This document shows, piece after piece, positions 2,947 through 42,243 of a DNA stretch of 57,952 nucleotides. A program made the position numbers and the translations under genes. The stretch lies in the IMG/VR virus record IMGVR_UViG_3300005099_000473, positions 1 to 57,952 of that record; one strand, given 5' to 3'. The stretch's first letter is position 1. The number at the start of each line of letters is the position of its first letter. The DNA is from a virus. The notes under the pieces were generated by a model. It was not told the DNA's origin. It made no database searches and was given only the letters and a program-made list of their open reading frames with translations.

Positions 2947-2963
2947 TATGGGAGGTGTTAAGT

Positions 2964-15054: not shown

Positions 15055-15058
15055 TAAA

Positions 15059-15334: not shown

Positions 15335-15339
15335 ATGGG

Positions 15340-15357
15340 ACAATAAAATTTAAATAA
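15340..15357 (+). promoter_or_regulatory. Possible archaeal promoter before protease gene
   Basis: The short gap after the preceding stop holds CAATAAAATTTAAATAAT, an A-rich stretch with a TATA-like core, just before the GGGGGTGAAG binding site. Weak evidence, by composition only. Confidence 0.3.
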
Positions 15358-15372
15358 TGGGGGTGAAGTAAA

Positions 15373-16956
15373 ATGGAACTTGTTGAAATTAATAAGCAGT
15401 TAGATAAAGAATTTAAGCTCAGTGTGGTTAATGAGGATGAGCGATTGATTGCAGGATGGGCAAGTGTTGAAGTTATTGATAAACAGGGTCAGTATGTTGA
15501 TGTTGATACTTTGGCTAAGGCAATGTTAAAGTTTATGGATAGAGGTGGTTTTGTAAATTACGGTCATGAAAATAAACCAATTGGTAAAGTATTGCAATGG
15601 GAAATTAGAAAGCATCCGAATACGGGGCAGTTAGGAGTTTGGATTATTGCAAAGATAAATAAGGGATATAAGTTAGATGATATTGTTTGGAATTTGATTA
15701 AGTCAGGAAAGTTAAAGGGGTTCAGTATTGCAGGGCTTGGTAATTTAGAAAAAAGAATTATGAAGTCAGATGATGGTCAAGAAAGAGAAGTTGAGGTTTT
15801 GAAAGATGTTGAATTGACTGAGATTAGTATTGTTGATGAACCAGCCAACCCGTATGCACTTATTGAAGAAGTAAGTGTTTTTGCTAAGGGTTCAGTTAAA
15901 GAGATTATGAAAACTGATTATGTTCAGGGTTTGGTTGATGTTTTGTGGGAAAGAATTGATGACATTTTAAGAAAGTATAATATTAGTAAGTCACAAGTTA
16001 TTGCGGATGAAATAGCAGATGAAGTTGAAAAGCATTTTGAAGAGTATGTTAGTTATGTTCAGAAATTCTTTAAGAAAGAAGATGATTTAGAGCATGTTAG
16101 GGATAAGGGTAGGTTGATTGCAACGTTTGATAATAAGGCTGAGGCAGAGAGTTATGCTAAAGAGAAAGGATATGAAGTATTTGAGACAAAGTCTGGTAGA
16201 TGGGCAGTTGTTGAAGTTCAGAAGGCCGAAGGTGCGATTACTACAGAGACTGAGGGTATGATGAATCCGACGTATGGTGATAAAGTTGAAAAACCAAAAG
16301 AAAAGAAAAAAGAAGATGAAGAAGAGGATGTTGAGAAGAAGTATGTAATAAGGGATTTAGAAGGTTTAGAAAGGTTAGAAGTAATGAAATCTGAAGACGG
16401 TTATATTGTTAAAGACTTAAAGACAGGTGAAGAAGTTAAAGTATTTGAAAAGGTATTGACCGAGTTTAAGAAACCAGAAGATTTAAGACCGCCTAAGGAA
16501 TGGTGGGAGAGATGTGTTGAAGAAACAGGCAGGCCAGGGCTTTGTGGTTGGGTGTATTATCATCATTTGAAACCAGAGAAGCCAGCAGGAAAGAAGGATA
16601 AGCCACATACCAGAACGGCAAGACAAAGAAAGAAGAAATGGTTAAAGGAGAAAAAGTCAGGTGAAGTTAAACTCAAAATTGAAGAGTTAAGAAAAACAGT
16701 TAAAGAATTAAAGAAGGCGTTAAATATTGAAGGTACAGTTGAAATAAGAAAGCCATTTGCAGGATTTAAGGATTGGGATGATTGTATAAAGAAAATGAAG
16801 GAACAAGGGTATAGTGAAGAAAGTGCAAAGAGAATTTGTGGTAAGTTAAAAGCAGAGTATGAAAAGGCGCTAATAAGAAAGAGAATGACAAAAACAAAGA
16901 GAATACTAAAGGGAATTGAAATAAAGAAGAAAATAAAAAGACTTTTGAAGAATTAA
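15373..16956 (+). CDS. Prohead serine protease (XkdF-like) with extended C-terminus
   Basis: The product is 527 aa. Residues ~1-170 match XkdF-like prohead proteases: AGWASVEVIDKQGQ, VNYGHENKPIG with the likely catalytic His, GKLKGFSIAGLG with the likely catalytic Ser, and LTEISIVDEPANP. It would cleave capsid and scaffold during maturation. The long C-terminus is charged and contains two small Trp/Cys segments, EWWERCVEETGRPGLCGWVYY and DWDDCIKKMKEQGYSE followed by AKRICGKL, of types found at the ends of phage structural genes. ATG 15373 follows GGGGGTGAAG. Neighbouring scaffold and capsid genes support the role. Confidence 0.8.
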   Translation: MELVEINKQLDKEFKLSVVNEDERLIAGWASVEVIDKQGQYVDVDTLAKAMLKFMDRGGFVNYGHENKPIGKVLQWEIRKHPNTGQLGVWIIAKINKGYKLDDIVWNLIKSGKLKGFSIAGLGNLEKRIMKSDDGQEREVEVLKDVELTEISIVDEPANPYALIEEVSVFAKGSVKEIMKTDYVQGLVDVLWERIDDILRKYNISKSQVIADEIADEVEKHFEEYVSYVQKFFKKEDDLEHVRDKGRLIATFDNKAEAESYAKEKGYEVFETKSGRWAVVEVQKAEGAITTETEGMMNPTYGDKVEKPKEKKKEDEEEDVEKKYVIRDLEGLERLEVMKSEDGYIVKDLKTGEEVKVFEKVLTEFKKPEDLRPPKEWWERCVEETGRPGLCGWVYYHHLKPEKPAGKKDKPHTRTARQRKKKWLKEKKSGEVKLKIEELRKTVKELKKALNIEGTVEIRKPFAGFKDWDDCIKKMKEQGYSEESAKRICGKLKAEYEKALIRKRMTKTKRILKGIEIKKKIKRLLKN

Positions 16957-25847: not shown

Positions 25848-28478
25848 ATGTCATATTCAGTTCAGGGAATAGTTCGTTATGATTTTGATAATGTAGGTCA
25901 GTTAATTTTGAAAGGAATAATAAATGGAAGATTACAAACTGTTCTGTCGCCTGCATATCCTTATGCGTTTGTTGAACGAAAATCGGGGGTTGTAAATGTT
26001 CTGTCAAGTATAGAAGAAGTTATTAATTGGGAAGAAGTAGATTTGAAAGCTTCTGATACTGGAATGGAGGTAATTAAGTTTTTTACGAAAAGCCCGAAGC
26101 ATATACCAGTAGTAAGAGAGAAGTTAAATGATGCTGGATATAAGACGTATGAGTCTGATATTCCGTTTATTAGAAGATTATTGCATGATAAGAAGTTAAT
26201 AATTGATTATGATAGGTCAAATATTGCATATCTGGATATTGAGGTTGATGATAGTAAAAGTTTTCCGTCTGAGTATGGTAAGTATGAGATTGTTTCAGTT
26301 GCAGTTTATGATGGAAATGGAAATGGAGAGTGGTTTTTTATAGACAATTATAATGACGAAGTGGAAATGTTAGGTGATATGGTTGCATACTTAATGGAAA
26401 AGGAAATGACAGTTATTGTTGGTTGGAATGTTCAGTTTGACTATAACCATTTGTTAGAAAGGTTAAGAATGAAAAAGATGTTTTGGGAATTGGAATGGTT
26501 AAGGCATTGTAACGTTATTGATTTAATGCACGAGTATATGTTTGCTGTTAAGGGTTTAAGTAGTTATAGTTTGGAAGAGGTTAGTCGGCATGAGGGTTGG
26601 AAAATCAAACATAAGAGTAAGGCAATTCATGAAATGAGAAAAATGCCAAAAGAACTTGAAGAGTATAATATGTATGATTCTGAATTATTGTATATGATTG
26701 ATAAGAAGTATGGTTTTACAGATGTTAAGTTTGAGATTGCTCGACAGACAAATTTGACGCTTGACATATTGACACAGTCAAGAATAGGTGATGCACTTAT
26801 AATATGGAGACTTAGAGAATTAGGTTATGTTGCGATTGATAAGGTGAAGAAACAAAAGGAAAAGTATAAAGGGGCATTTGTTATTGAACCAGAGCCAGGA
26901 TTGTATAAGTATGTTGGATATTATGATGTTAATAGTCTGTATCCGAATGTAATAATTCATAAGAATATTGACATTGATGGCTTTAATGGTGAAGTAATGC
27001 CATACATTGAAAGGCAGTTGTTAGAGGACAGGGCAAAGTATAAAAAGTTGTATAAAGAGACTAAAAATCCAAAGTATAATGTTATGCAAAATGCAAAGAA
27101 AATATTGGCTAATGGTTTGTATGGTTTGTTTGGTTCGCCCAGTTTCAGATATTATAATAGAGAAAAGGCAGAGGCAATAACGACTGGGGGAAGAGAAGTA
27201 CTAATGAGAATGAAAACATTTATAGAGAATGATTTGGCTTTAAAAGTGTTGTATGGCGATAGTGTAACAAAGGATACAAGAGTTAGATATTATACGTTGT
27301 CAGGAAATGAACGAGTAGAGGCAATTGAAGACTTGTGGAATAGATATAGTAAGTATGCTAAAGTTAGACCAGATGGGAAAGAAGAAATATATCTAAAAAA
27401 TATGCATTTATTGACTTATGCAGTTAGTGATGATTTGAAGGTTGGTTTAAAAGAGATTGTTCGTGTGGTTAGGCATAAAGTAAAGAAAAAAATATATGAG
27501 ATTATTACAGAATCAGGGAAGTCAGTTAAAGTTACAGAAGACCATTCAGTTATGGTTTTGTCAAATGATGGCCAAAGATTAGTAATTAAAAGACCAAAAG
27601 ATTTGAGTATAAATGTAGATATGTTGTTAGTTAAAAGTAATAACGGAAGGGGTAGTAGTTCGTTTGAACGTGTCGTCAAAGTCAAAGAGGTTACAGACTA
27701 CATTGGATATGTTTATGACTTAGAAGTTGAAGAATATCATACGTTTTTTGCAAATGATATTTTAGTGCATAATACTGACTCTATGTTCTGTCATTTAGGT
27801 ATTGCTTTTGATAATGAAATTGAGCCTGATATTGATGCCGTGGTTCAGTTTGCAGAATTCGTTAAGGATGAAATAAATAAGGAGATTGCACCGTTTCAGG
27901 TAAAGCTTGAATGTGTCTTAACAGGAATGCTGTTTTTGAAAGGAGGTGATAGGGGTGGAGCAAAGAAAAGATATGTAGGTTTAAAGACAACTGGTGAATA
28001 TATTGTAAGAGGTTTGGAAGTAAGACGGTCTGATTGGTCTGAGCTTAGTAAAGAAGTTTTATGGAAAGTTATTGATTTGATTTTGAAGGAGGGTAAAACA
28101 AAGAAGGATGTAATGAAATATTTAGGTGAAGTTAAGAGGAAGTTATATAGTGGAGAATATAATGATAAGATTGTTATGGCAAAGTCGTTAAGTAAAAGAA
28201 TTTCAGAATATAGTAATGCTCCGCCTCATGTAAGGGCGTATGTTAAGGCAAAGGAAAAAGGGTATGATTTTGCAGGTCAGAAAGTTACGTTTGTCTGGGT
28301 AAAAGGAGGTGATGTTGAGCCAGTCTATCCAGGAGTTGATTTAAGTAAGATTCCAGTAGATTATGATGCGATTTGGGAAAAACAGATAATGGCGCCAGTA
28401 AAAAGAATCTTGGATAGTATTGGGGCAGGTAGAAATATGAAGTTAGATGTTTTCTTTAAGATGAATAAAAAATCTTAA
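25848..28478 (+). CDS. Family B DNA polymerase containing a mini-intein
   Basis: The precursor is 876 aa, about 705 aa after splicing, which is short for the family. Exonuclease motifs are present: YLDIEVDD (~128), GWNVQFDYN (~192) and YNMYDSELLYM (~273). Polymerase motif A is YYDVNSLYPNVI (~358), motif B is KKILANGLYGLFG (~417) and motif C YGDTDS is split by the intein. It is the main replicative polymerase of the virus and should proofread. GGAGGTGTTTAA precedes ATG 25848. Codon use is like that of its neighbours, also inside the intein. Confidence 0.9.
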   Translation: MSYSVQGIVRYDFDNVGQLILKGIINGRLQTVLSPAYPYAFVERKSGVVNVLSSIEEVINWEEVDLKASDTGMEVIKFFTKSPKHIPVVREKLNDAGYKTYESDIPFIRRLLHDKKLIIDYDRSNIAYLDIEVDDSKSFPSEYGKYEIVSVAVYDGNGNGEWFFIDNYNDEVEMLGDMVAYLMEKEMTVIVGWNVQFDYNHLLERLRMKKMFWELEWLRHCNVIDLMHEYMFAVKGLSSYSLEEVSRHEGWKIKHKSKAIHEMRKMPKELEEYNMYDSELLYMIDKKYGFTDVKFEIARQTNLTLDILTQSRIGDALIIWRLRELGYVAIDKVKKQKEKYKGAFVIEPEPGLYKYVGYYDVNSLYPNVIIHKNIDIDGFNGEVMPYIERQLLEDRAKYKKLYKETKNPKYNVMQNAKKILANGLYGLFGSPSFRYYNREKAEAITTGGREVLMRMKTFIENDLALKVLYGDSVTKDTRVRYYTLSGNERVEAIEDLWNRYSKYAKVRPDGKEEIYLKNMHLLTYAVSDDLKVGLKEIVRVVRHKVKKKIYEIITESGKSVKVTEDHSVMVLSNDGQRLVIKRPKDLSINVDMLLVKSNNGRGSSSFERVVKVKEVTDYIGYVYDLEVEEYHTFFANDILVHNTDSMFCHLGIAFDNEIEPDIDAVVQFAEFVKDEINKEIAPFQVKLECVLTGMLFLKGGDRGGAKKRYVGLKTTGEYIVRGLEVRRSDWSELSKEVLWKVIDLILKEGKTKKDVMKYLGEVKRKLYSGEYNDKIVMAKSLSKRISEYSNAPPHVRAYVKAKEKGYDFAGQKVTFVWVKGGDVEPVYPGVDLSKIPVDYDAIWEKQIMAPVKRILDSIGAGRNMKLDVFFKMNKKS
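27261..27773 (+). other. Mini-intein (171 aa) in the DNA polymerase active site
   Basis: It is inserted between the Asp and Thr of YGD-TDS. The first residue is Ser (SVTKDTRVRYYTLSGNE), block B is VTEDHSVMV with T-x-x-H, and the end is GYVYDLEVEEYHTFFANDIL, then VHN followed by Thr+1. These are the splice junction residues expected for a class 1 intein with Ser nucleophile. No LAGLIDADG endonuclease fits in 171 residues, so it can splice but not home by itself. The same site is used by inteins in other archaeal PolB enzymes. Confidence 0.88.
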
Positions 28479-30755: not shown

Positions 30756-31490
30756 ATGTTAATTATTGATAATAGTGAGTACAATGCGTTTAAGCGTGCA
30801 TTATCAAGGCGAAAGAAAAATAGTATATTGGAAAAGTTAAACGAATTGATTGACAGAGTAGAAGATATTGGAGTTGACTTCATTATTATTGGTAATCAGA
30901 GAATATATGTTATTGAGAGAAAGACATTGACTGATATGTTGAATAGTATTCATGGTCAAGAAAGTAAGGCTGGTGGTAGGTTTTGGAAACAGTTAGATAG
31001 AGTTAAGTTAGTTGCAGAGGATTTGTCTAATCAGTATGATGTTCCCGCATACGGGTTAGTCATTTTGGAGGGTAGTGTTTTTCAGAGGTATAAGGCAAGA
31101 TATGCTAAGTTAAGACCACAGCAATGGTTTGGTATTCAGGCTGAGATTGCAGAGAAAGGAATTGGTTTAATCAGAACATGGAATAGAAATGAGACTGTTT
31201 TGGCGTTAGAAAGATTGAAGGATAGGGCAGGTAAAGAAAAGCAGAAGTTAATGCCAATGGCAATCAAGAAAGAATTAAGAACTGAAAAAGAAGAAGCAAT
31301 GCATATGTTGTTCGCTGTGTCTGGCATAGGACTGAAAAAAGCAGCTAAAGTACTTGATAAATATGGTTCAGTTAAGGCGGTAATTAATTTAAGTGAAGAT
31401 AGGTTGATTTCAGAATTGGGGCAGAAGATTGGTAAGCATTTTTATGAGATTGTAAGTAAAGATTGGAGAAAAGAGAAGGTGTTTGAATGA
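30756..31490 (+). CDS. XPF/Mus81-family structure-specific endonuclease
   Basis: The product is 244 aa. The nuclease core shows IDNSEYN, then IIIGNQRIYVIERKTLTDML with the ERK catalytic motif of ERCC4 nucleases. The C-terminal part has a helix-hairpin-helix pair (LFAVSGIGLKKAAKVLDKYG, then LGQKIGKHF). Archaeal XPF enzymes cut branched DNA and 3-prime flaps, so a role in resolving replication forks is likely. It starts 4 bases after the Cas4-like gene. Confidence 0.85.
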   Translation: MLIIDNSEYNAFKRALSRRKKNSILEKLNELIDRVEDIGVDFIIIGNQRIYVIERKTLTDMLNSIHGQESKAGGRFWKQLDRVKLVAEDLSNQYDVPAYGLVILEGSVFQRYKARYAKLRPQQWFGIQAEIAEKGIGLIRTWNRNETVLALERLKDRAGKEKQKLMPMAIKKELRTEKEEAMHMLFAVSGIGLKKAAKVLDKYGSVKAVINLSEDRLISELGQKIGKHFYEIVSKDWRKEKVFE

Positions 31491-32096: not shown

Positions 32097-32798
32097 ATGA
32101 ATGAAAGGATAAAAGATAAAATTCCAGTAGTTGAAATATTTGAAAGCTTTCAAGGTGAAGGAAGGTTTATGGGACAAAGGGCTTTGTTTGTTAGGTTTGC
32201 AGGATGTAATTTGGTCGGTAAATGTAAATATTGTGATACTGATTTCAGAGTAAGAAAGTTAATGACAGTAAATGAAATTACAGTTGAAGTATTGAAGTAT
32301 TTGGCAAGCAATGGTAAGTTAGTAGTATTTACTGGCGGAGAGCCAATGATATACCAAGATGTGATGATAGAAATAATGAGGAAGTTAGAAGGGACTGGTA
32401 AGGGTCTGTTTCAGATTGAGACGAATGGAACAATAAAGCCCATGCCAGATTTTTTATTGAAGATTGATAAAATTGTGGTAAGTCCTAAAAGAGGATATGA
32501 AAAGAAGGCATATAAGAATTTTGTAAATAATGAATTGGTTGACTGGAAATATGTAGTTGGAGATGTTCCAGAGGACAGTGCGTTTTGGTCGTATGATAGA
32601 ATAAGACCTGAAGTTAGATGGTTAGTTGAAGTATATGGAGTATCACAGAATAATATTTGGCTAATGCCGTATGGTGCAACTAAAGAGGAACTTGAAAAGA
32701 ATGCAGTTAAAGTTTGGCAGTTAGCTAAGGAATTGGGAGTGAATGTTTCCGACCGTCTTCATGTTCGGGTATTTGGGAAAAGTATGATGGGAGTGTGA
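32097..32798 (+). CDS. queE: QueE, 7-carboxy-7-deazaguanine synthase
   Basis: The product is 233 aa. The N-terminus has the QueE signature EIFESFQGEGRFMGQRALFV, then FAGCNLVGKCKYCDTDF holding the radical SAM cluster Cys residues (C-x5-C-x2-C here), and VFTGGEPMI. QueE is a radical SAM enzyme that converts 6-carboxy-tetrahydropterin to 7-carboxy-7-deazaguanine. FolE, QueD and QueC genes lie within 8 kb and complete the preQ0 route. AAGGAGG precedes ATG 32097. Confidence 0.9.
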   Translation: MNERIKDKIPVVEIFESFQGEGRFMGQRALFVRFAGCNLVGKCKYCDTDFRVRKLMTVNEITVEVLKYLASNGKLVVFTGGEPMIYQDVMIEIMRKLEGTGKGLFQIETNGTIKPMPDFLLKIDKIVVSPKRGYEKKAYKNFVNNELVDWKYVVGDVPEDSAFWSYDRIRPEVRWLVEVYGVSQNNIWLMPYGATKEELEKNAVKVWQLAKELGVNVSDRLHVRVFGKSMMGV

Positions 32799-32802
32799 GC
32801 AA

Positions 32803-32949
32803 GTGGACGTTGTCTTAATGAAGTTTATAGTGTTGTATATATTGGTAGTAATAGTTTTGTATGTGATGTTATCAAGTATTATGGATTTGGAAGAAAGTGA
32901 ATTAGAAAAGACGTTAAGAAAGCTTTCGGATAGGATGTGGAAAAGTTAA
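32803..32949 (+). CDS. Small single-span membrane protein (48 aa)
   Basis: GTG 32803 starts a frame with one hydrophobic helix (FIVLYILVVIVLYVML) followed by a charged tail. It fills the gap between queE and the next gene, and the binding site GGGAGTGTGAG overlaps the queE end. Unknown role. Confidence 0.5.
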   Translation: MDVVLMKFIVLYILVVIVLYVMLSSIMDLEESELEKTLRKLSDRMWKS

Positions 32950-32961
32950 GGGGTGGTATGT

Positions 32962-33189
32962 ATGGAAAAGTTTTGGAAATTGATTATTGTTGATAAAGGT
33001 AGAACGCAAGTGTATGAAGGTAAGGAATGGAATATTGTAGTTGCAAGTGTAAGGAGAATAAAGAAAGGTGTATTAAGAGGTTTTATTTTTGATGCATATG
33101 AAAATTATTCAAGTATGTCAGATGATGAATTAATTAAGAAATTTGGGGATGAGATAGTATTGAGGGTGCATGAATGGAAGGAGGATTGA
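32962..33189 (+). CDS. Small alpha/beta protein of unknown function
   Basis: The product is 75 aa. ATG 32962 is preferred because AAGGGGTGG precedes it at the usual distance. Strands and a C-terminal helix are predicted (FWKLIIVDKG, IVVASVRRI). No family recognised. Confidence 0.55.
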   Translation: MEKFWKLIIVDKGRTQVYEGKEWNIVVASVRRIKKGVLRGFIFDAYENYSSMSDDELIKKFGDEIVLRVHEWKED

Positions 33190-33194
33190 TAAAA

Positions 33195-33509
33195 ATGTTT
33201 GGGTTTGGAAAAAGAAAATGGAAGTCATCTGTAGAGAAATGGTATAAGGATATGGTTAGAAAGTATAATATTACGGAAGAGGAAGAGTTAGAATATTTAA
33301 ATGAGTTGGCAGATGAATTGAACAAGACACCATTGTCTGCGTCAGCTTTGTTAGTGTTTTTGGTATTGTTAGGGTTAGTGCTATTGTCAGCAGGAATTGG
33401 AATATTAATACTATTGTTTGCTTTTTGGTGGGCATCAAAAATGGATAAGGATAGGGCAAATGAGGCTGAGAAGAAGTTTTTAATGTGGAGAATGTCAAGG
33501 AGGGGTTGA
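33195..33509 (+). CDS. Membrane protein with helical hairpin
   Basis: The product is 104 aa. A charged N-terminal ~45 residues is followed by a long hydrophobic stretch (about 50-78, broken by GLVLLSAGIG) that could form two membrane helices, then a basic tail. ATG 33195 follows GGAGGATTG. Unknown function. Confidence 0.6.
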   Translation: MFGFGKRKWKSSVEKWYKDMVRKYNITEEEELEYLNELADELNKTPLSASALLVFLVLLGLVLLSAGIGILILLFAFWWASKMDKDRANEAEKKFLMWRMSRRG

Positions 33510-33511
33510 AA

Positions 33512-33817
33512 ATGATATTGGATGTTTTGAAGTTGAAGGATGAAGTTAAAGAATTAAAAGATGAGATTAAGAAAATGAAAGAGGAAATGGTTTATTTAAA
33601 AGGTGTTACGAAAGAACTTTTGGAAAGGTATAACAGATTATTAGATGAGCATGCAAGACACATTAGTGCATATTATGCGTCTGCAAGTGATATGTTTGGT
33701 ATAGTACTTCTTGATACAAAAAATAAAATTGTTTTTATTGATAAAGACAAGATGTTCAAGGATTGGAAAGTATATTATTTGTCAAAGAAACCTGAGGATG
33801 AAGAAATAAATGAATGA
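33512..33817 (+). CDS. Coiled-coil protein
   Basis: The product is 101 aa. ATG 33512 follows GGAGGGGTTG. Residues ~5-50 form a heptad coiled coil (LKDEVKELKDEIKKMKEEM), followed by a short alpha/beta domain (GIVLLDTKNKIVFIDKD). Adjacent to a membrane protein gene, with which it may interact. Confidence 0.6.
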   Translation: MILDVLKLKDEVKELKDEIKKMKEEMVYLKGVTKELLERYNRLLDEHARHISAYYASASDMFGIVLLDTKNKIVFIDKDKMFKDWKVYYLSKKPEDEEINE

Positions 33818-33845
33818 TATTAAATAGTTTAAGGAGTGATGTAGT

Positions 33846-34004
33846 ATGGAGGTTGATGAGAAGATTATTAGGTATGTAGCTGATTTAATTAGAGACGTTG
33901 AAGGAGAAATTTATGAGAAGCAATTAGCAGATAAATTGGATGAATATGATAAACTTGTTGAGGTATTAATGATATTAGATGGTTTAGGGGGTGATGAAGA
34001 ATGA
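33846..34004 (+). CDS. Small acidic helical protein (52 aa)
   Basis: ATG 33846 begins an acidic helical product ending in GGDEE, similar in size and end to the one at 6199. Its final codons serve as the ribosome site of the next gene and the two overlap by 4 bases. The start site AAGGAGTGATG supports it. Confidence 0.55.
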   Translation: MEVDEKIIRYVADLIRDVEGEIYEKQLADKLDEYDKLVEVLMILDGLGGDEE

Positions 34005-34234
34005 AAGAGTTAAAGATAGGTGATAAAGTATATGTAGAGGCTGAATATATTGGTTTGTCTCCAGAAGGTTTGAAAAAGTTTTATGTAATAACTGGGACAG
34101 GAATTAAAGTTGAAGTAAGATGTAAAGAAGGATACTATTTCAGTAAGGAAGAAGTTTGTGAGGAATTAGTTAAGAAATTAAAGCCAAAGAAGAAAGTAAG
34201 GAGAAGAAAGAAAAAGGAAGGTGAAGAAAAATGA
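34001..34234 (+). CDS. Small protein with basic tail
   Basis: The product is 77 aa: an SH3-like strand region (IGDKVYVEAEYIGL) and a C-terminal tail rich in Lys/Arg (KPKKKVRRRKKKEGEEK) that could bind nucleic acid. It overlaps queD by 4 bases. Function unknown. Confidence 0.6.
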   Translation: MKELKIGDKVYVEAEYIGLSPEGLKKFYVITGTGIKVEVRCKEGYYFSKEEVCEELVKKLKPKKKVRRRKKKEGEEK

Positions 34235-34692
34235 GGGTTTGGAGAGTAAAAAGAAAAATATATTGGTCTGATAGTTTTGACAGTGCTCATTTTTTAATTT
34301 TGCCGTATAGTAGTAAATGCTTGAACATTCATGGGCATGAGTATAAAGTAGAGGTGGAGATAGAAGGACAGTTAGATGATAATGGAATGATTTTTGACTT
34401 TAATCATTTAAAGACAATAGTTAAGAAGTTAGACCATGCTGTTATTGTACCAAAGGATGCAATAAAGTTTGAACAGGGGTTGGTTGAGGTTGAAACGTTA
34501 AATGGTAGTAAAATGATTTTGAATAAAGGGCAGTATATAGTTATTGAGGGTAATGCAACAGCTGAAAATATTGCAGAATATATTGCTGGTCAGATAGTTA
34601 AGAATGCAAATGATAATATTGAGAAAGTTAAAGTTAAGGTATGGGAAGATTCAAGAAGTTATGCAGAAATTGAGTTAAATAACAACCATTAG
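34231..34692 (+). CDS. queD: QueD, 6-carboxy-tetrahydropterin synthase
   Basis: The product is 153 aa of the PTPS/QueD family. Zinc ligands are visible in FDSAHFL and NIHGHEYKVEV. The catalytic Cys is in SSKCLNIHGH, and the C-terminal Glu is in VKVWEDSRSYAEIE. IFDFNHLK and LDHAVI are also conserved. It makes 6-carboxy-tetrahydropterin from the FolE product and feeds QueE. It overlaps the preceding gene. Confidence 0.88.
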   Translation: MRVWRVKRKIYWSDSFDSAHFLILPYSSKCLNIHGHEYKVEVEIEGQLDDNGMIFDFNHLKTIVKKLDHAVIVPKDAIKFEQGLVEVETLNGSKMILNKGQYIVIEGNATAENIAEYIAGQIVKNANDNIEKVKVKVWEDSRSYAEIELNNNH

Positions 34693-34701
34693 AAAATTCG
34701 A

Positions 34702-34748
34702 GGTTATTATTCATAAAACAACCATTAAGATTTTCAACAGTTGTTTTA
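34702..34748 (+). promoter_or_regulatory. Possible structured leader upstream of folE
   Basis: TAAAACAAC (34714-34722) and GTTGTTTTA (34740-34748) form a perfect 9-bp hairpin with a 17-base loop. A shorter GGTT/AACC pairing (34702-34705 with 34720-34723) would exclude it. AACAACCATTA also occurs twice directly (34681 and 34717). This could be a terminator, operator or RNA switch; nothing decides between them. Confidence 0.35.
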
Positions 34749-34781
34749 CAAAAGGCTGTATGATTACTTGAGGTGATAATA

Positions 34782-35375
34782 ATGGTGAGTTGGAGTAAAA
34801 TTGAGGATAAGATTCAAGAACTGATTGAAATATTGCATGATGAATTGGGTTGGTTTAATGAGGAAGAATTAGAGAATACTGCAAGTAGAATAGTAAAGTT
34901 TTATGAGGAATGGCATGAGAATAGTCAGTATGATAGGTTTACGTTATTTGATAATGGTGGTGATAGAGGAACAGTTTATAAGTATGACCAGTTAGTAATA
35001 TTAAAGAATATAACGTTGCATAGTATGTGCAGTCATCATATGTTGCCGTTTTTTGGAGTAGCTCATATTGTATATTTGCCAGGTGAAAAGGTGATTGGAG
35101 TAAGTAAATTGGCAAGGGTAGTTAGAAAGTTTGCGAGTAAACCTCAGATTCAGGAACAGTTAACAGAAGAAATAGCGGACTATTTGTTTAAAGTTTTAAG
35201 ACCAAGATTTTTAATGGTTGTTATTGAGGCAAGGCATACTTGTATGATAATTAGGGGAGTTAGAGAACATGAAAGTACAATGGTTACAAGTGCGATAAGG
35301 TATGATAAACAAAGTTTTGAAAAAGGTATTGGTAGTTTAAAAGATGAGGCTTTGAGGTTGATTTATGGGAGGTGA
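34782..35375 (+). CDS. folE: GTP cyclohydrolase I (FolE type)
   Basis: The product is 197 aa. MCSHHMLPFFG carries the zinc-binding Cys and His, VIGVSKLARVVRKFA is the conserved substrate-side segment, and ARHTCMIIRGVR supplies the second zinc Cys. It converts GTP to dihydroneopterin triphosphate, the first step toward preQ0. This type IA enzyme is unusual in archaea, which mostly use other enzymes, so it was probably acquired. ATG 34782 follows GAGGTGATAAT. Confidence 0.9.
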   Translation: MVSWSKIEDKIQELIEILHDELGWFNEEELENTASRIVKFYEEWHENSQYDRFTLFDNGGDRGTVYKYDQLVILKNITLHSMCSHHMLPFFGVAHIVYLPGEKVIGVSKLARVVRKFASKPQIQEQLTEEIADYLFKVLRPRFLMVVIEARHTCMIIRGVREHESTMVTSAIRYDKQSFEKGIGSLKDEALRLIYGR

Positions 35376-35380
35376 TGAGA

Positions 35381-35713
35381 ATGTTTGAAAAGATTAATAT
35401 TGGAGATTATAAGAAAATTATAGTAAAATTGAATGATGGAATTGGATATATGATAACAAAGTTTGAGAACCATGGAGATAAAGTAGTATTGTATAAGAGG
35501 AATGAAGTAATTGATGAAATAGTTAAAAAGTATTTGCAATCAGATAGTAAATGGGAAGAGGTTATGGAAATGACAGTGGAGAAAGCAAATGAAATTTTGG
35601 AAGGATATATGGATGTGGCAAAGAGAATGAAGCAAGTAGTAGGAGAAAAGGCAAGTATTAAGTTTGAAGAAAAGGACAATAATTTGTATATTGTGTTGGA
35701 TGTGGAAAGGTGA
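35381..35713 (+). CDS. Small protein of unknown function
   Basis: The product is 110 aa. ATG 35381 follows GGGAGGTGATG. It has an N-terminal alpha/beta part and a long helix (VEKANEILEGYMDVAKRMKQ) before a final strand. It lies between folE and the phosphoesterase. No family recognised. Confidence 0.6.
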   Translation: MFEKINIGDYKKIIVKLNDGIGYMITKFENHGDKVVLYKRNEVIDEIVKKYLQSDSKWEEVMEMTVEKANEILEGYMDVAKRMKQVVGEKASIKFEEKDNNLYIVLDVER

Positions 35714-35718
35714 TAAGG

Positions 35719-36399
35719 GTGGTCAGAGTACTATTTGTCAGTGATTTACATATTGAAGAAGATAATAAATATGGTCAGTTAAATTGGTTAAAAGCGTTAG
35801 TTAGAAAGTATAGGCCAGATATGTTGTTATGTGCTGGTGATAGTGGAGAATTAAGACCAGAAGATATTGAAGGTTTGGAAGTTCAGTTTTATACAATTTA
35901 TGGTAATCATGATAGGCCAGAGTTTGTTCAGTCCGATAAAGCATTAAGTAAGTATTGGTTGGCAGACGGTTTGCATGTGTTTTATAATGGGTTGAGAATA
36001 TTGGTATGGAATGGCATTTTTGGATTTAGAACAGATAGAAAGAGGAAATGGTATCATAGAAGTTTGGATGATGCAGTTCGTTTGGCTTTCAAGCATCAGA
36101 GGTCAAAAGTAGATATTTTTATAAGTCATGAAGTGCCATGGTATCAGTTTGGTAAGAAAAGAACGCAAGAGTATTTGGCAGTAATGAATTTTATTGTTAA
36201 AATGGTTAAACCAAAGGTTTGGTTGAATGGACATATGCATTTGCCTGAGCCAGTTACGTATGATGTGAAAACATTTAAACCAACAGTTTATGTAAGAGTT
36301 GATAGTAGAGTATGTAGTCATGGTTATGCAGTTATTGATTTTAAAGGGGATGATTTTAAGGTTAAGTTAGGAGGTGTTAAGCAATGTTCATTGTTTTGA
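35719..36399 (+). CDS. Calcineurin-like metallophosphoesterase
   Basis: The product is 226 aa. All metal-site motifs are visible: FVSDLHIEE (D-x-H), LLCAGDSGEL (GD), IYGNHDRPEF (GNHD), ISHEVPWY (H) and WLNGHMHLPE (GHxH). It hydrolyses phosphate esters in nucleotides or DNA, but the substrate is not clear. GTG 35719 is chosen for spacing to AAGGTGAT; GTG 35710 is the alternative. It sits within the deazaguanine gene run. Confidence 0.82.
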   Translation: MVRVLFVSDLHIEEDNKYGQLNWLKALVRKYRPDMLLCAGDSGELRPEDIEGLEVQFYTIYGNHDRPEFVQSDKALSKYWLADGLHVFYNGLRILVWNGIFGFRTDRKRKWYHRSLDDAVRLAFKHQRSKVDIFISHEVPWYQFGKKRTQEYLAVMNFIVKMVKPKVWLNGHMHLPEPVTYDVKTFKPTVYVRVDSRVCSHGYAVIDFKGDDFKVKLGGVKQCSLF

Positions 36400-36596
36400 A
36401 AGGAAATTTTCTGCATTTCATAATGGAGAGACCAGAACTGATTGATGTTATTAAGTTTGATAATATGGCCGATGTAGAGAAGTGGATAGAGGATGAGCAT
36501 TGGAATGTCATTAAGAAAATTGAAGTTGAAGGTAAAGTATTGTATGTAGTTAATGATGGCTTTAATGAGTTTGAAGTTTTAGTGTTGGAGGTTTGA
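36384..36596 (+). CDS. Small alpha/beta protein (70 aa)
   Basis: ATG 36384 lies within the end of the phosphoesterase gene after GGAGGTG. Product: strand, helix (FDNMADVEKWIEDEHW), strands (VLYVVNDGFNEFEVLVLEV). Unknown function. Confidence 0.55.
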   Translation: MFIVLKGNFLHFIMERPELIDVIKFDNMADVEKWIEDEHWNVIKKIEVEGKVLYVVNDGFNEFEVLVLEV

Positions 36597-36598
36597 GT

Positions 36599-36841
36599 AT
36601 GCCAGTGGTAATTGTTGAATATGCGCTTAAGTTTAGTAGTGAGGAAGAGTATTATGAGTTTAGAGATATGATTGAAGCTTTAAAGAAGTTAGGAGTGTTT
36701 GATTTTGAAAAGTGCGTAATAGGGAAGAAAGTCCATGTTAGAGAGGATGGTGGTTTTGAGTCTCAGGTAAATAGTTTTCCGCCTGCGTATGATAGTACAG
36801 AGTGGAAATGGAAATGGACAACTGAGGGGTGGCCAAGATGA
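36599..36841 (+). CDS. Small protein of unknown function (80 aa)
   Basis: ATG 36599 follows GGAGGTTTG. The first half is strand-helix (VIVEYALKFSSEEEYYEFRDMI), and the Trp-rich C-terminus (TEWKWKWTTEGWP) is unusual. It overlaps the next small gene by 4 bases. Confidence 0.55.
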   Translation: MPVVIVEYALKFSSEEEYYEFRDMIEALKKLGVFDFEKCVIGKKVHVREDGGFESQVNSFPPAYDSTEWKWKWTTEGWPR

Positions 36842-36984
36842 AAATATACTTAAATAGGAGTAAGATTGAAATAAAGAAGGAGATTGAGAGACTGAAGAAA
36901 GTTTTGGAGAATGAGAATGTGCCGATAGTTAGAGTGTATATTAAAAGTAAGATTGAAGAGTTAGAGAAGGAGTTAGTAAGATAA
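36838..36984 (+). CDS. Small charged helical protein (48 aa)
   Basis: The frame ATG 36838 to TAA 36984 overlaps the preceding stop. The product is mostly Lys/Glu helix with a short central strand (VPIVRVYI). No family. Coupling to the upstream gene supports translation. Confidence 0.5.
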   Translation: MKIYLNRSKIEIKKEIERLKKVLENENVPIVRVYIKSKIEELEKELVR

Positions 36985-36994
36985 GTAAAATTAA

Positions 36995-37010
36995 CAAAAC
37001 TTTATAAAGG
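36995..37010 (+). promoter_or_regulatory. Promoter before the first DpdA-like gene
   Basis: CAAAACTTTATAAAGG resembles the recurring promoter of this genome, with a TTTATAAA box. It lies ~24 bases before TTG 37034, so the transcript would have almost no leader. Confidence 0.5.
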
Positions 37011-37033
37011 ATTTATATAGGAGGTTGATGCTA

Positions 37034-38104
37034 TTGAGTGATTTGGTTTTGTTTTATTCAGGGTTTGACAGTACTGACAGGTTAAAGAGATTGATAGAGG
37101 TAATGGAGAATGGGTTTAATGTTTCAGGAGTTTTGGTGACGTTTATTGGTCTTGAAGGTAGTGTGATGAAATATTTAAAGTTATTGAAGAAAGAGTATGA
37201 TGTTAAGTTAATGTTGGATAGTGGTGCGTTTAGTTTTAATAAAGCGTTATGGTGGATGAATGGAATAGTGAAGTTTGAGCCTTCTGAGAAAGTTTTACAA
37301 ATTATGAAGTATAAGAGATATGACTGGTATTTTAGAAAATATCTAAGATTTTTAAAGAGAAATATTGATTTGTTTGATGTTTATGCTGAGTTAGATTTAC
37401 AGTTAGTTGTTGGAACAGAGAAAGTTAATGAGTGGAGAGAGATGTTCATTAAAGAAGGTCTGGAGCCTGTTTTGGTTTGGCATGGGGAAAATGAAAAAGG
37501 AGTAATTGAAATGTTGCAGTATGGGGATAAGTTTGGATTTCCTTGGAAACAGTTAGATAAAAGACCAGAGGATATAATGCAGTTAGTTAGGTTTGTTAAG
37601 AAGAATGGTGCAAAATGGATACATTGGTTTGGTATGACTCGTTGGAATGTTTTGAGACAGTTATCATTGGAGAAAATATTGAATAGTGCTGATAGTACTG
37701 CTTGGGCATCTGCTCAGAGATATGGTGTTGTATATGTTATAGATGGGGAAAGTCAAGTAAGAAGTCTTCAGATTTCGTTTAATAGTAAGAGAGGTACAGA
37801 TGATAAGAAGAAGGTTGTGGCAAGTCAGTATAGAAAGTTTTTAGAACAAAATAAAGAAAAGATAATTGAGCTTGGGTTAGATTATGAGAAAATATTTGGT
37901 TTGAAAGACTGGAGAGAAGTGTCTTTTATGAATTTATTGGTATTTCAATGGGGTTTAGAAGAATTAAATAAGGAGCTTAAATCTGGCAAAAGGTTTAAAT
38001 ATTTGGATTTAGAAAAACATATGAGGAATGGGGATGGAGTATTTGATAATATAAGATTAAAGCCAAAAAGAAAAGATATTGATTTGGGGAGGTGGTTGAG
38101 TTGA
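37034..38104 (+). CDS. DpdA-like DNA guanine transglycosylase 1
   Basis: The product is 356 aa from TTG 37034 after GGAGGTTGATG. TGT-like features: MLDSGAFSFN (Asp of the active site), YAELDLQ, PVLVWHGEN, KWIHWFGMT and SADSTAWASAQRYG, a TIM-barrel order seen in DpdA proteins that exchange guanine in DNA for preQ0. Zinc-binding Cys of tRNA enzymes are absent, as in DpdA. A second, diverged copy lies at 39653. With FolE, QueD, QueE and QueC nearby, DNA modification is the likely role. Confidence 0.75.
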   Translation: MSDLVLFYSGFDSTDRLKRLIEVMENGFNVSGVLVTFIGLEGSVMKYLKLLKKEYDVKLMLDSGAFSFNKALWWMNGIVKFEPSEKVLQIMKYKRYDWYFRKYLRFLKRNIDLFDVYAELDLQLVVGTEKVNEWREMFIKEGLEPVLVWHGENEKGVIEMLQYGDKFGFPWKQLDKRPEDIMQLVRFVKKNGAKWIHWFGMTRWNVLRQLSLEKILNSADSTAWASAQRYGVVYVIDGESQVRSLQISFNSKRGTDDKKKVVASQYRKFLEQNKEKIIELGLDYEKIFGLKDWREVSFMNLLVFQWGLEELNKELKSGKRFKYLDLEKHMRNGDGVFDNIRLKPKRKDIDLGRWLS

Positions 38105-38547
38105 AAGTTACATATTTGGATTATGGGAAAGTGTATGAAATGCTTCTGCAATTGGAAGGTATTGATAAATATGATAGAATTGTTGGTATTGGAAGAGCAG
38201 GAATTATTCTGGCTGGAATGCTTGCAACGATGCACGATAAGAGATTGTCCTATGTTGTTTTGGGAAAGGAGAATGGGGTATATCCAGTTCCTGATAAGTC
38301 AGAGAAAATATTGTTAGTAGATGATGTGCTTGCAACTGGTAAGACAATGAAAATTGTTGAGGAAATGTTCAAGGGATATGATTATGACATTTATGTTATT
38401 GTTGATGGTATTGATAGGGCAAAATATAGACCGGAGAAGTATATGTGTTCGATAGTAGCAGAGGAAAGTAATTGGATATTGTTTCCTTGGGATTTGATAG
38501 ATTTTGTTATAGGAGAAAGAAAAAGTTATTCAAGGTGGAGAGTATGA
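38101..38547 (+). CDS. Phosphoribosyltransferase
   Basis: The product is 148 aa from TTG 38101, overlapping the DpdA-like gene stop. It has the PRPP-binding motif ILLVDDVLATGKTM and an upstream loop RIVGIGRAGIILAGML. It is short and resembles purine (xanthine/guanine-type) phosphoribosyltransferases. Between a base-exchange enzyme and QueC, it may recycle released guanine or handle preQ0; that is inference. Confidence 0.8.
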   Translation: MKVTYLDYGKVYEMLLQLEGIDKYDRIVGIGRAGIILAGMLATMHDKRLSYVVLGKENGVYPVPDKSEKILLVDDVLATGKTMKIVEEMFKGYDYDIYVIVDGIDRAKYRPEKYMCSIVAEESNWILFPWDLIDFVIGERKSYSRWRV

Positions 38548-38852
38548 GGGAAAGAAAGATTTATGCTTTTGATTTAGATGGTGTGCTCTGTGAAGAAGGT
38601 GATTGGAGACCAGGAGGAATGATAAAGAGAAAACCAATTAAAGAAAATATTGAGAAAGTAAATAAGTTGTTTGATATGGGTAACATTATTGTAATATTTA
38701 CTGCCCGTCTTGAGGAAGACCGTCCAGTAACTGAAGCTTGGTTAAAGTTGAATGGTGTAAAGTATGATTATCTAATAATGGGAAAGCCAAGATTTGATGT
38801 GTATGTGGATGAAAGAAGGAAAGTGATAGGAATTGAGGATTTGGAGGTGTGA
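38544..38852 (+). CDS. HAD-family phosphatase
   Basis: The product is 102 aa. IYAFDLDGVLCEEGD holds the nucleophile Asp and the D+2 Asp. IVIFTARLEEDRPVTEAWL is motif II. The C-terminal part (IMGKPRFDVYVDERRKVI) carries the Lys and acidic metal site. This minimal HAD lacks a cap and resembles small nucleotide or sugar phosphatases. It overlaps the phosphoribosyltransferase stop (ATGA), so they are coupled. Confidence 0.78.
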   Translation: MRERKIYAFDLDGVLCEEGDWRPGGMIKRKPIKENIEKVNKLFDMGNIIVIFTARLEEDRPVTEAWLKLNGVKYDYLIMGKPRFDVYVDERRKVIGIEDLEV

Positions 38853-38855
38853 TGT

Positions 38856-39656
38856 ATGAGTATTTGGGAACATACTGTTCCGTATAAAAGGTATAAGCTT
38901 GCCATAATGTGGTCAGGAGGTATGGATACGACAATTGCTTGGTTTTATGCTATGAAGAATGAATATAAGCCCGAGGATGTAGTTATGATACATTTGGCGA
39001 TTGGTGAGCCATATGAGGAGAAGCAACAGAAAGCGATTAAGATGTTAAGTCCGTATATTGAGAGTGATATTTTAATGTTTGATTTTGACCTTTTGAGAAA
39101 AGAAATTGGGAATGTTCCGACGCCAGATAAACAGATTGTTCCAGGCAGAAATTTATTGATTGCATATCTTGGAGCATTTTTTGCGGATAGGGTCTGGTTA
39201 GGAGCTTTGGATGGTGAAATGCATAGATATATGCCTGATAAGAATATGGTGTTTTTCCAATTGACAAGTGGAATATTGTCGTATATTATGGATAAAGATA
39301 TTGTGGTTGAAACTCCGTTTGCTACAATGAGTAAGTCGGAAGTTTTGAAATGGATGGTTGATATGTATGGAAAAGAATATACTGAGGAAGTTATTTCTAA
39401 GACTGTTACTTGTTATGACCCTGATGAATGGGCATGTGGAAAGTGTTCGACTTGTTTCAAGAGATGGATAGCGTATGTTAATGCAGGTTTGGATTGGAGT
39501 AAGTATTGGAAAGTTAATCCAGCTGAGAGTGAGGTAGCTAAGAGTTTAGTGAGGAAGTATAAAGAGGCTGAAAGAAAAGGAGAATATAGTCATTACAGTA
39601 GAAAAAGAATAAGAGAGACGTTTGAAGCATTAAGAAAAATGGGGGTTGAGATATGA
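38856..39656 (+). CDS. queC: QueC, 7-cyano-7-deazaguanine (preQ0) synthase
   Basis: The product is 266 aa. The PP-loop ATPase motif is MWSGGMDTT, with VPGRNLLIAYLGAFFAD and the zinc site CYDPDEW..CGKCSTCFKRW typical of QueC. It converts 7-carboxy-7-deazaguanine and ammonia to preQ0 using ATP. The protein lacks an attached glutaminase (GAT) domain, so this gene alone predicts preQ0 rather than archaeosine. It overlaps the second DpdA-like gene by 4 bases. Confidence 0.9.
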   Translation: MSIWEHTVPYKRYKLAIMWSGGMDTTIAWFYAMKNEYKPEDVVMIHLAIGEPYEEKQQKAIKMLSPYIESDILMFDFDLLRKEIGNVPTPDKQIVPGRNLLIAYLGAFFADRVWLGALDGEMHRYMPDKNMVFFQLTSGILSYIMDKDIVVETPFATMSKSEVLKWMVDMYGKEYTEEVISKTVTCYDPDEWACGKCSTCFKRWIAYVNAGLDWSKYWKVNPAESEVAKSLVRKYKEAERKGEYSHYSRKRIRETFEALRKMGVEI

Positions 39657-40846
39657 AGGTGTTTTTGGCAGGTGCTGAGTCTTTTATTGATTTGGTAAAG
39701 AAAGTTCAGCCAAAGTATGTTCTTATGTCTTTTTATTATTTGAAAGAAAAGAATATTGATATCAGTGATTTGTATGATTTGGGAGTTAGTATTTTTATTG
39801 ATAGTGGTGGTTTTACGTTCAGGACAAAACATAAAGTAGATTCTGTTCCAATGACATATATTGATGAGTATGCTCAGTGGTTGCTTGAGAATGAAAAGTA
39901 TTTATTTGCGTATGCTAATGTTGATGTTTTAGATGTAAATGAAACTAAAAGAAATCAAGAATATTTAGAGGATGAATATGGGTTAAGGCCTGTCCCTGTC
40001 TGGCATTATGGAGAAAGTGATGATATTATGAGAGAGTATGTTGAAGTTTATGATTATGTTGCTTTTGGTGGTTTTGCCGGTGGAAATGATAAAGTTTTTG
40101 TAAGAGATAGGGTTTTGAATTCGTTAAGAAAAGCTAAGAGGTTTAATGAGGATGTTAAAGTTCATGTGTTTGGATATGCGGGTGATTTGAGAAGTATAGC
40201 TGGTTTGGCATATAGTTGTGATGTTACTTCTTGGATTGCAGGGAGATATGGTAAAGTTAGTTTGTTCAGAAACAATATTGTTGAAATGGTACATTGGAAA
40301 GAGGGTCAGATAATTTTAAAGAGTAAAGCTGAAGAGTATGGTTTTGATTTTGAAAAGATTAAGAAAGGAGATTATCATGTTCTGAATGAACTGTCTATGT
40401 GGGAGTGGAAGAAAGCTCAAGAGTTTTATGAGGATTATGAGGTGAATATTGGTATGGCGCAGTCAGATATAGATGATTTAATTGAGCAAATTAAGATAAA
40501 ATATGGTGTAAGTCTTGAAATAGAAGAAATAATGAGGTTTTTAATAGATGAAAAGTTTAAACGATATGTATTTGCAAGGAAGTTAGAAGAGCAACAGGGA
40601 ATTATTGATAGGTCAGTAACGCAGTTAGAGGATAGTCTGGCTCAGTTAATTGAGAAGTATATGAAGATAAAGTATCCAGAAAGGTTTAGAACTGTTCGTA
40701 TTAGAGAAGAGAAAGTAAATGAAGAAAAAGAAGCATACTTATGGGAAGAAAAGCTTCAGAGAATTGAAAAGATATTTGCTCGGTCTGTTTCTGAGGAAGA
40801 GGAAGAGGATGAGGAAAGTAAAGTTCCAGTTGTGGTTGAGGAGTAA
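39653..40846 (+). CDS. DpdA-like DNA guanine transglycosylase 2
   Basis: The product is 397 aa. VFLAGAES at the start, IFIDSGGFTFR, FAYANVDVLD, PVPVWHYGES, YVAFGGFAGG, VHVFGYAG and SCDVTSWIAGRYG follow the TGT/DpdA barrel order. It is closer to phage DpdA than copy 1 and also has a helical C-terminal extension (about 270-397), ending in a Glu-rich tail. Coupled to queC by a 4-base overlap. Having two versions suggests two partners or two target contexts. Confidence 0.8.
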   Translation: MKVFLAGAESFIDLVKKVQPKYVLMSFYYLKEKNIDISDLYDLGVSIFIDSGGFTFRTKHKVDSVPMTYIDEYAQWLLENEKYLFAYANVDVLDVNETKRNQEYLEDEYGLRPVPVWHYGESDDIMREYVEVYDYVAFGGFAGGNDKVFVRDRVLNSLRKAKRFNEDVKVHVFGYAGDLRSIAGLAYSCDVTSWIAGRYGKVSLFRNNIVEMVHWKEGQIILKSKAEEYGFDFEKIKKGDYHVLNELSMWEWKKAQEFYEDYEVNIGMAQSDIDDLIEQIKIKYGVSLEIEEIMRFLIDEKFKRYVFARKLEEQQGIIDRSVTQLEDSLAQLIEKYMKIKYPERFRTVRIREEKVNEEKEAYLWEEKLQRIEKIFARSVSEEEEEDEESKVPVVVEE

Positions 40847-40857
40847 GGTGGTGAAAT

Positions 40858-42243
40858 GTGAATATTGAATATGTTAAAGAAAAGTTAAGAGAATTGAGTA
40901 AGAAGTATCCGATTGGTTTTGCTGAGTGGATTAGTGGATTTAAATTGTTTCCGTATCAGAGAAAGTTTTTGGCTGACCAGAGTAAGAGGTTGATATTTGT
41001 TGCAGGGCGTCAGATTGGAAAAAGTACGATTGTTGCATTAAAGGCTCTGTGGAGAGCTTGGACACATGAAAATCAAGTGATTTTAGTAATTGCTCCGACA
41101 TTTAGACAATCAAAAATATTGTTCGATAAAATAAGGAGTTTTTTGATGAATGAGGATTTGATAATGAATGATGTGGTAAGATTGACAATGCATGATATTG
41201 TTTTTAAGAATGGAAGTAGTATTCATTGTTTGCCTGCGGTTCAGGAGAATATTCGTGGTTATACTGCTGATATGATAATTGTTGATGAGGCCGCGTATGT
41301 TCCAGATGAGGTTTTTACAGCAATTGAACCGTCTCTGGCAGTTAAAGATGGGACATTGATATTATTGGGCAGTCCATATACGCCTAGTGGATATTTCTAT
41401 AGAGCATGGACAAGTTCAGACTGGAGTAAGTATCATGTTAGTTCGTATAAGAATCCATTGATTAGAAAAGAATGGATTGAAAAGTATAGGGCAAGTCATA
41501 CAGAAATTGAATTCAGACGTGAGATTTTAGGTGAGTTTGTTGAAGAGACTGAAGAAGGATTGTTCAGTTTGGATGCAGTTCGTAGGGCAATGAAGTTAAA
41601 GAGAACTGGCAGTCCTGTTCCGGGGTATCGTTATTTTATGGGAGTTGATTTGGCAAGATTCGGTAAAGATATGACTGCGGTTGTTCTTATTGGTGTTAAA
41701 GAAGGTGATGAGGAAGCTCCGTTTGAGATGCATGCTTTGTATTATAGACAGAAAAGACCGTTAAATGAGACAATTGGTTGGTTATTGGATTTGAATATGA
41801 AATGGAAACCAGAAAAGATTTTTGTTGATGCGAATGGACTTGGAGCCGGTGTTTATGATGTATTGGTTGAGAAATTGGGAAGTATGGTTAATGATGTAAA
41901 AGTAAGTGGCAGGGAAAGAGTAGAAATGTATATGACAACAAAGAGGTTGCTTGAAGAAGGCAAATTATTGTTGATAAATGATAGTAAGTTATTGGAGCAT
42001 TTCTTGAATTACGAAGTTAAGTATACAAGTAGTGGTAAGATTAGAGTAATAAAGAAGCCAGAAGGTCATGATGATATTTCAGATGCGACAGTTTATGCAG
42101 TTTATGGTGCAGTTATGACGTTAGGTTATGGTCAGAGAGTATATGCAGCCAGTTTTGATTTAGATGAATTAACTGATAAGATTACAGAGATTGAAACGAA
42201 AGCTTATGGTGATGTTGGTTACGAAAGATATTGGGGGTGGTGA
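40858..42243 (+). CDS. terL: Terminase large subunit
   Basis: The product is 461 aa from GTG 40858. ATPase: Walker A AGRQIGKST (~48), Walker B MIIVDEAAY, coupling motif LLGSPYTPSG. Nuclease: MGVDLARFGKD (first Asp), KIFVDANGLGAGVYDVL and HDDISDATVYAVYGA (last Asp). It packages DNA into the prohead. It is placed more than 30 kb downstream of the portal gene, directly after the DNA-modification genes, which is unusual. Confidence 0.9.
   Translation: MNIEYVKEKLRELSKKYPIGFAEWISGFKLFPYQRKFLADQSKRLIFVAGRQIGKSTIVALKALWRAWTHENQVILVIAPTFRQSKILFDKIRSFLMNEDLIMNDVVRLTMHDIVFKNGSSIHCLPAVQENIRGYTADMIIVDEAAYVPDEVFTAIEPSLAVKDGTLILLGSPYTPSGYFYRAWTSSDWSKYHVSSYKNPLIRKEWIEKYRASHTEIEFRREILGEFVEETEEGLFSLDAVRRAMKLKRTGSPVPGYRYFMGVDLARFGKDMTAVVLIGVKEGDEEAPFEMHALYYRQKRPLNETIGWLLDLNMKWKPEKIFVDANGLGAGVYDVLVEKLGSMVNDVKVSGRERVEMYMTTKRLLEEGKLLLINDSKLLEHFLNYEVKYTSSGKIRVIKKPEGHDDISDATVYAVYGAVMTLGYGQRVYAASFDLDELTDKITEIETKAYGDVGYERYWGW

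Follow-up and report, generated by a model that had tools for sequence, protein, structure and literature searches.

Genes of the preQ0 island

The DNA analysed here, referred to as the window, is the IMG/VR record IMGVR_UViG_3300005099_000473 over its positions 1-57,952 (57,952 nucleotides), in which the plus strand carries nearly all large open reading frames (ORFs). Positions 32097-40846 hold a set of genes for the synthesis of the deazaguanine base preQ0, two DpdA-like transglycosylases and a phosphoribosyltransferase (PRT) of a type that recurs in viral DpdA loci. A QueE-like radical SAM 7-carboxy-7-deazaguanine synthase is encoded at 32097-32798 (phrog_2076, 6e-42; TIGR03963, 2e-21). The QueE models match it at 2e-21 or weaker, under the NCBIfam cut-offs, and its radical-SAM Cys cluster and TGGEP motif align with QueE of the haloarchaeal virus HVTV-1 and of a related virus, G026. 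The other pathway genes encode a QueD-like 6-carboxytetrahydropterin synthase with the CxxxHGH motif (34231-34692; PF01242, 2e-28; TIGR03367, 2e-21, marginally under cut-off), the GTP cyclohydrolase I FolE (34773-35375; PF01227, 2e-51; NF006826, above cut-off) and the preQ0 synthase QueC, in which the PP-loop SGGMD and the Cys cluster are present (38856-39656; PF06508, 1e-20). The transglycosylases are DpdA-a (37025-38104; phrog_887, 9e-20) and DpdA-b (39653-40846; phrog_887, 6e-39), the latter encoded immediately 5' of the terminase large subunit (TerL).

These six genes had been named in an earlier reading made from the letters alone (the sequence-only reading), and profile matches recovered all of them, on the plus strand, with chance excluded. 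The start at 37034 that it gave for DpdA-a is slightly internal to the gene, which begins at 37025 (TTG) or 37028 (ATG), and it overlooked the PRT and a HAD-like protein, which a relative keeps in the same order, as well as a metallophosphoesterase. FolE, QueD, QueE and QueC form the established route from GTP to preQ0, and their co-occurrence with DpdA is the gene content by which viral preQ0 DNA-modification systems are defined.

QueC has no fused amidotransferase (GAT) domain. Profile scans of the window proteins, in which small ORFs of no assigned family remain and DpdL/M/N-type profiles were not included, found no QueF, ArcS or amidotransferase, as the sequence-only reading had stated. 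FolE gives weak QueF matches (26-30 bits, under cut-off), because the two share T-fold homology. With none of these enzymes found, 2'-deoxy-preQ0 (dPreQ0) would be the best-supported product, and preQ0, already expected in that reading, the likeliest base, the pathway being complete without QueF, ArcS or GAT. Further phage deazaguanines, together with the enzymes DpdL, DpdM and DpdN, were reportedly described in a 2023 paper. In phages CAjan and Rosebush, a single DpdA with the preQ0 genes gives dPreQ0 (PMC6884629).

The two DpdA proteins are about 23% identical to each other. All residues that are invariant in 52 viral DpdAs are kept in both (D65, Y106, D124, H200, S221 and D223 in DpdA-a; D50, Y73, D91, H171, S188 and D190 in DpdA-b), among them the catalytic aspartate pair and the base-recognition aspartate (D65/D124/D223 and D50/D91/D190, respectively). 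H200 and H171 align with the histidine of the KVHGFG motif (His196) in phage 9g DpdA, a conserved residue that DpdA2 proteins lack (PMC6884629). AlphaFold (AF2) models, with a confidence score (pLDDT) of 83 for DpdA-a and 85 for DpdA-b (about 97 in the DpdA-b core), both have the TIM barrel of tRNA-guanine transglycosylases (TGT) and match TGT and DpdA structures. The top five PDB matches of the DpdA-a model are all TGTs. The DpdA-b model matches 7ovs and 7ui4; its best match is a chain of the heterodimeric murine TGT, and 7ui4, a solved DNA preQ0 insertase, ranks third.

Archaeal hosts use preQ0 for tRNA G15 and the catalytic fold is common to both enzyme types, which would allow an island that modifies tRNA, supplying the precursor of archaeosine or queuosine, instead of viral DNA. 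We regard this as extremely improbable, since both enzymes fall in phrog_887 and can be aligned with the DpdA of phage 9g, neither matches the Pfam tRNA-TGT family, and a DNA preQ0 insertase is among the top structural matches of DpdA-b. Sequences and models support the view that both transglycosylases are of the DNA type rather than the tRNA type.

The island is bordered on the left by an ERCC4-type nuclease (30756-31490, plus strand; PF02732, 2e-8), homologs of which border the same slot in the relatives G015, G026 and L210, and on the right by TerL (40858-42243, plus strand; phrog_2, 1e-55), with homologs in G015 and G026. In G026, whose major capsid protein is 54% identical to that of the window, the slot from ERCC4 to TerL reads QueE, QueD, FolE, PRT, HAD, QueC, DpdA-b, TerL; the identities are 65% for QueC, 65% for HAD, 49% for PRT and 47% for DpdA-b. 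DpdA-a is missing from G026 together with the whole 2.7-kb stretch 35372-38104, which also encodes the metallophosphoesterase (35710-36399, plus strand; PF00149, 8e-14), and nothing between FolE and PRT in G026 corresponds to the latter. The sister virus G015/G016, many of whose structural and replication genes are homologous to those of the window, has in this slot (L201, 3926-7224) a methyltransferase, a DegT-like aminotransferase, a nucleotide-sugar epimerase and a 167-aa ORF, followed by TerL; L210 has neither the preQ0 set nor the sugar-type set between ERCC4 and TerL. As judged by gene order, the cassette is an accessory, swappable island, since the same slot of the relatives holds other genes or neither set. 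The island has the base composition of the rest of the genome and is free of GATC, and is therefore not a very recent import. The TerL ORF of G026 (13352-15703, minus strand; L215/L216) is 784 aa long and extends about 320 aa beyond the window TerL, possibly through an intein.

The sequence-only reading had suggested either a heteromer of the two DpdAs or two sequence contexts, of which the second is possible. An obligatory DpdA-a/DpdA-b heteromer, like the eukaryotic QTRT1/QTRT2, would suit two divergent copies within one operon and the best PDB match of DpdA-b, a chain of a heterodimer. It is nevertheless very unlikely, because neither subunit is catalytically degenerate, as one would be in a QTRT1/QTRT2-type pair, G026 has the same cassette with DpdA-b and no DpdA-a, and almost every sampled virus has a single DpdA. 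The two-DpdA arrangement itself is real and is better read, on present sequence comparisons, as a core plus an accessory enzyme. Given the G026 island, with DpdA-b and without DpdA-a, gene content indicates that in this lineage DpdA-b is the island's core and ancestral insertase and that DpdA-a and its 2.7-kb neighbourhood are a later addition. Two full DpdAs were seen in only four other sampled viral loci (L028, L038, L050 and L090); doubling appears to be rare and probably arose more than once, because the tree positions of the doubled DpdAs are scattered.

DpdA-b carries a C-terminal helical extension (approximately residues 255-397), and a DpdA with a long extension lies directly 5' of TerL in four viral loci, namely the window, L016, L029 and G026. 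The extension is homologous to that of L016 (Z 10.5). The C-terminal part of phrog_887 covers the L029 extension and also a separate gene 3' of DpdA in gut phages (L003/L005), and in Streptomyces phage BRock the extension domain is fused to DpdA. A fused terminase small subunit (TerS), hinted at by the adjacency to TerL, was rejected: in hhalign, the sister virus's putative TerS scored a probability of 0.4%, and the pairwise comparison gave only p=0.014. Among the other DpdAs, that of the gut-phage locus L005 (7950-10148) has an apparent intein at the catalytic aspartate motif (SSDS...HN-TTWLGG), and that of L158 (7692-8498) is divided between two ORFs, one for the N-terminal and one for the C-terminal half, which may reflect an interrupted or split gene.

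Phosphoribosyltransferases in viral DpdA loci

Between DpdA-a and QueC/DpdA-b lie the genes for the PRT, of the xanthine/guanine type (38092-38547, plus strand; PF00156, 1e-8), and for a small HAD-like protein resembling the PNKP phosphatase (38544-38852, plus strand; phrog_1238, 5e-19, and phrog_415, 1e-16, on the longer ORF 38472-38852). As read from the ORF translation, the start of the latter overlaps the PRT stop (ATGA). The PRT has the phosphoribosyl pyrophosphate (PRPP) loop LLVDDVLATGKT and the hood WILFPWD, that is, the PRPP loop and C-terminal WxxxPW(D/E) that characterise xanthine-guanine phosphoribosyltransferase (XGPRT), and the core residues are invariant in nine viral PRTs. The solved proteins closest to a profile of the viral homologs are the purine PRTase of Pyrococcus (7e-26) and the XGPRT of E. 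coli (3e-17); for the standalone viral PRT, the match to the latter is at 5e-15. We propose guanine as the putative substrate.

A survey of 160 IMG/VR DpdA loci gave 132 non-redundant loci that were scored; as the loci were chosen for DpdA, the PRT frequencies hold among DpdA loci and not against all phages. FolE or PRT was found nearby in 93/132. An N-terminal fusion of PRT to FolE occurs in 36 of these 93 (L019, L028, L036 and 33 more) and a separate PRT in 13; Pfam confirms PRT and FolE in one protein of L028. All counted PRTs have the PRPP loop, and most of them the tryptophan/PW hood. The fused version is shortened relative to the E. coli XGPRT/Pyrococcus type. Phages PaMx25, VpKK5 and MMDA13 carry the fusion, more than 80% of which is matched by 33 phage records; the annotated ones among the matches listed are named GTP cyclohydrolase. 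The standalone PRT query matches only 25 of 50,697 phage records. In Flavobacterium phage immuto the PRT gene lies between QueE and FolE, with DpdA close by, and in Brevundimonas phage MaInes it adjoins FolE. The paper on MMDA13 calls the fusion copy FolE and lacks the word 'phosphoribosyl', which is also absent from Hutinet 2019 (PMC6884629); the 2023 paper on DpdL/M/N may already mention the PRT.

The virus, its probable host and the closest known systems

The window encodes head genes and a portal with homology to the portal of the haloarchaeal Druskaviridae. The replication set comprises PolB, an archaeal/eukaryal-type primase large subunit and the ERCC4 nuclease. An intein splicing domain lies inside PolB (25848-28478), and two radical SAM proteins are encoded near the left end of the window (2955-3830 and 4312-5631). 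The amino-acid composition (IVYWREL 0.45; (E+K)/(Q+H) 4.7) corresponds by formula to about 88 °C, a rough estimate. Applied to the L178 part of G015, to a part of HVTV-1 and to a part of phage 9g, this formula yields 96, 58 and 37 °C, respectively. This composition points to a hyperthermophilic host, and the window probably belongs to a tailed virus of a heat-loving archaeon. Alignments of the major capsid protein or QueC to genome contigs found no relative that would indicate the host. Scans of IMG/VR with DpdA-b, TerL and PolB, each used singly, found no relative.

The GC skew of the window is extreme and uniform (0.55; G 26.7%, C 7.7%; C 3.4% at third codon positions). In the relatives it is 0.60 (G026), 0.50 (L209) and 0.45 (G015, 0.44-0.47), and only 0.03 in L210. 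The cassette was rejected as its cause, as G015, without a detected cassette, still shows 0.44-0.47; L210, with 0.03, is likewise without a cassette between ERCC4 and TerL. A link of the G-rich strand to G-quadruplexes was also rejected, G3 motifs not being in excess (0 found, about 1 expected).

The closest known systems are those of the dPreQ0 phages CAjan and Rosebush and the dG+ phage 9g (PMC6884629), which share with the window FolE/QueD/QueE/QueC, the DpdA family, His196 and a tailed virus. The window differs from them in its probable archaeal, heat-loving host lineage, the second DpdA, the PRT and HAD genes and the extended DpdA-b beside TerL. HVTV-1 (Druskaviridae, dPreQ1) is likewise an archaeal tailed virus with a homologous portal and FolE/QueD/QueE/QueC, but it is a virus of a mesophilic halophile, has QueF, and no DpdA was detected in it; HVTV1_69, TGT-like by eye, was rejected as the missing DpdA (profile comparison, 0.3% probability). 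Immuto and MaInes share PRT beside FolE with the window, and immuto also DpdA; unlike the window, immuto has QueF and MaInes has ribonucleotide reductase genes adjoining FolE-PRT. E. coli XGPRT (1a95 group) and the Pyrococcus purine PRTase 1vdm share the PRPP loop of 6-oxopurine PRTases and the WxxxPW hood with the viral PRT, which differs from them in being encoded in preQ0 operons and in often occurring as a shortened, FolE-fused version.

Proposed pathway and its significance

From the gene identities, intact catalytic residues, fold, synteny and PRT recurrence observed here we infer a product, a DNA target, a PRT substrate and a division of labour, which together make a DNA-modification island with preQ0 insertion by DpdA and guanine recycling by PRT the likely reading. 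FolE, QueD, QueE and QueC would convert GTP to preQ0, and DpdA-b, and probably DpdA-a, would replace guanine bases of viral DNA with preQ0 through base exchange of the TGT type. An exchange of this kind, in which guanine is released, is how phage DpdA is generally accepted to work (PMC6884629). Each exchange would free one guanine, which the XGPRT-like PRT would convert to GMP; host kinases would return GMP to GTP, to be used again by FolE. Recycling to GTP is favoured because the PRT is so often fused to FolE, which consumes GTP. Most likely, DpdA-a would also be an active insertase, differing from DpdA-b in sequence preference or substrate.

Some observations weigh against this reading. DpdA-a is without the usual Gly-Gly base-pocket loop. 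This is not evidence of inactivity, because some viruses with one DpdA seen beside preQ0 genes are also without the first Gly and yet keep the catalytic set. The loop of the 7-substituent pocket differs between the two copies, which would suit two DNA bases, one DpdA inserting preQ0 and the other a different deazaguanine from the host pool; as no second biosynthetic branch (QueF, ArcS, GAT) is encoded, this is highly improbable.

No PRT is detectable in 44/93 loci, and PRT-type genes are also present in Campylobacter phages such as CP220, a group for which dADG is reported and thought to be inserted without DpdA (PMC6884629). The PRT might then act as a nucleotide maker, phosphoribosylating preQ0, itself a 6-oxopurine analogue, or another deazaguanine, with a reductase and kinases providing the dNTP for PolB and the DpdAs adding or editing bases; the position of the MaInes FolE-PRT pair 3' of ribonucleotide reductase genes agrees with this. 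We consider it unlikely, because the PRT is common where DpdA is present and its frequent fusion to FolE, the first step, fits guanine-to-GTP recycling better than a step after QueC.

The window contains no GATC (0 vs 56 expected), and there is almost none in the cassette-free sister G015 (1 vs 167) and in HVTV-1 (0 vs 421). Since the avoidance occurs with and without the cassette, the modification does not remove the GATC pressure, and protection, if real, would be partial or directed at other sites or functions. CTAG is nearly absent from the window (5 vs 41 expected), and strong site avoidance is also seen in G015, HVTV-1 and the BS162P1 region. GTAC is avoided more weakly in the window (56 observed/101 expected) than in G015 (13/102), a difference not to be over-read because GTAC is cut in phage 9g, in which the GATC-containing BamHI and BglII sites are protected.

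We favour preQ0 insertion with guanine recycling over these alternatives. The wider claim, that the PRT, separate or FolE-fused, is an unrecognised guanine-recycling module of viral 7-deazaguanine modification, here belonging to a swappable island that recruited a second, differently shaped insertase in a virus of a hyperthermophile, is put forward tentatively. Within a single virus lineage, the window, G026 and G015 have two, one and no DpdA, respectively, and so lend themselves to a natural comparison. With the window, the complete preQ0 and DpdA system also reaches a tailed virus whose host is probably a hyperthermophilic archaeon. A 7-deaza base, having no N7, may in principle also lower heat-driven depurination. 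Of all the results, the recurrence of a guanine PRTase in viral deazaguanine operons is the most interesting. Base exchange leaves one guanine to dispose of per inserted base, and one GTP is spent per preQ0; if the proposal is true, the recurrent XGPRT domain, mostly FolE-fused, would explain how these viruses balance guanine and GTP.

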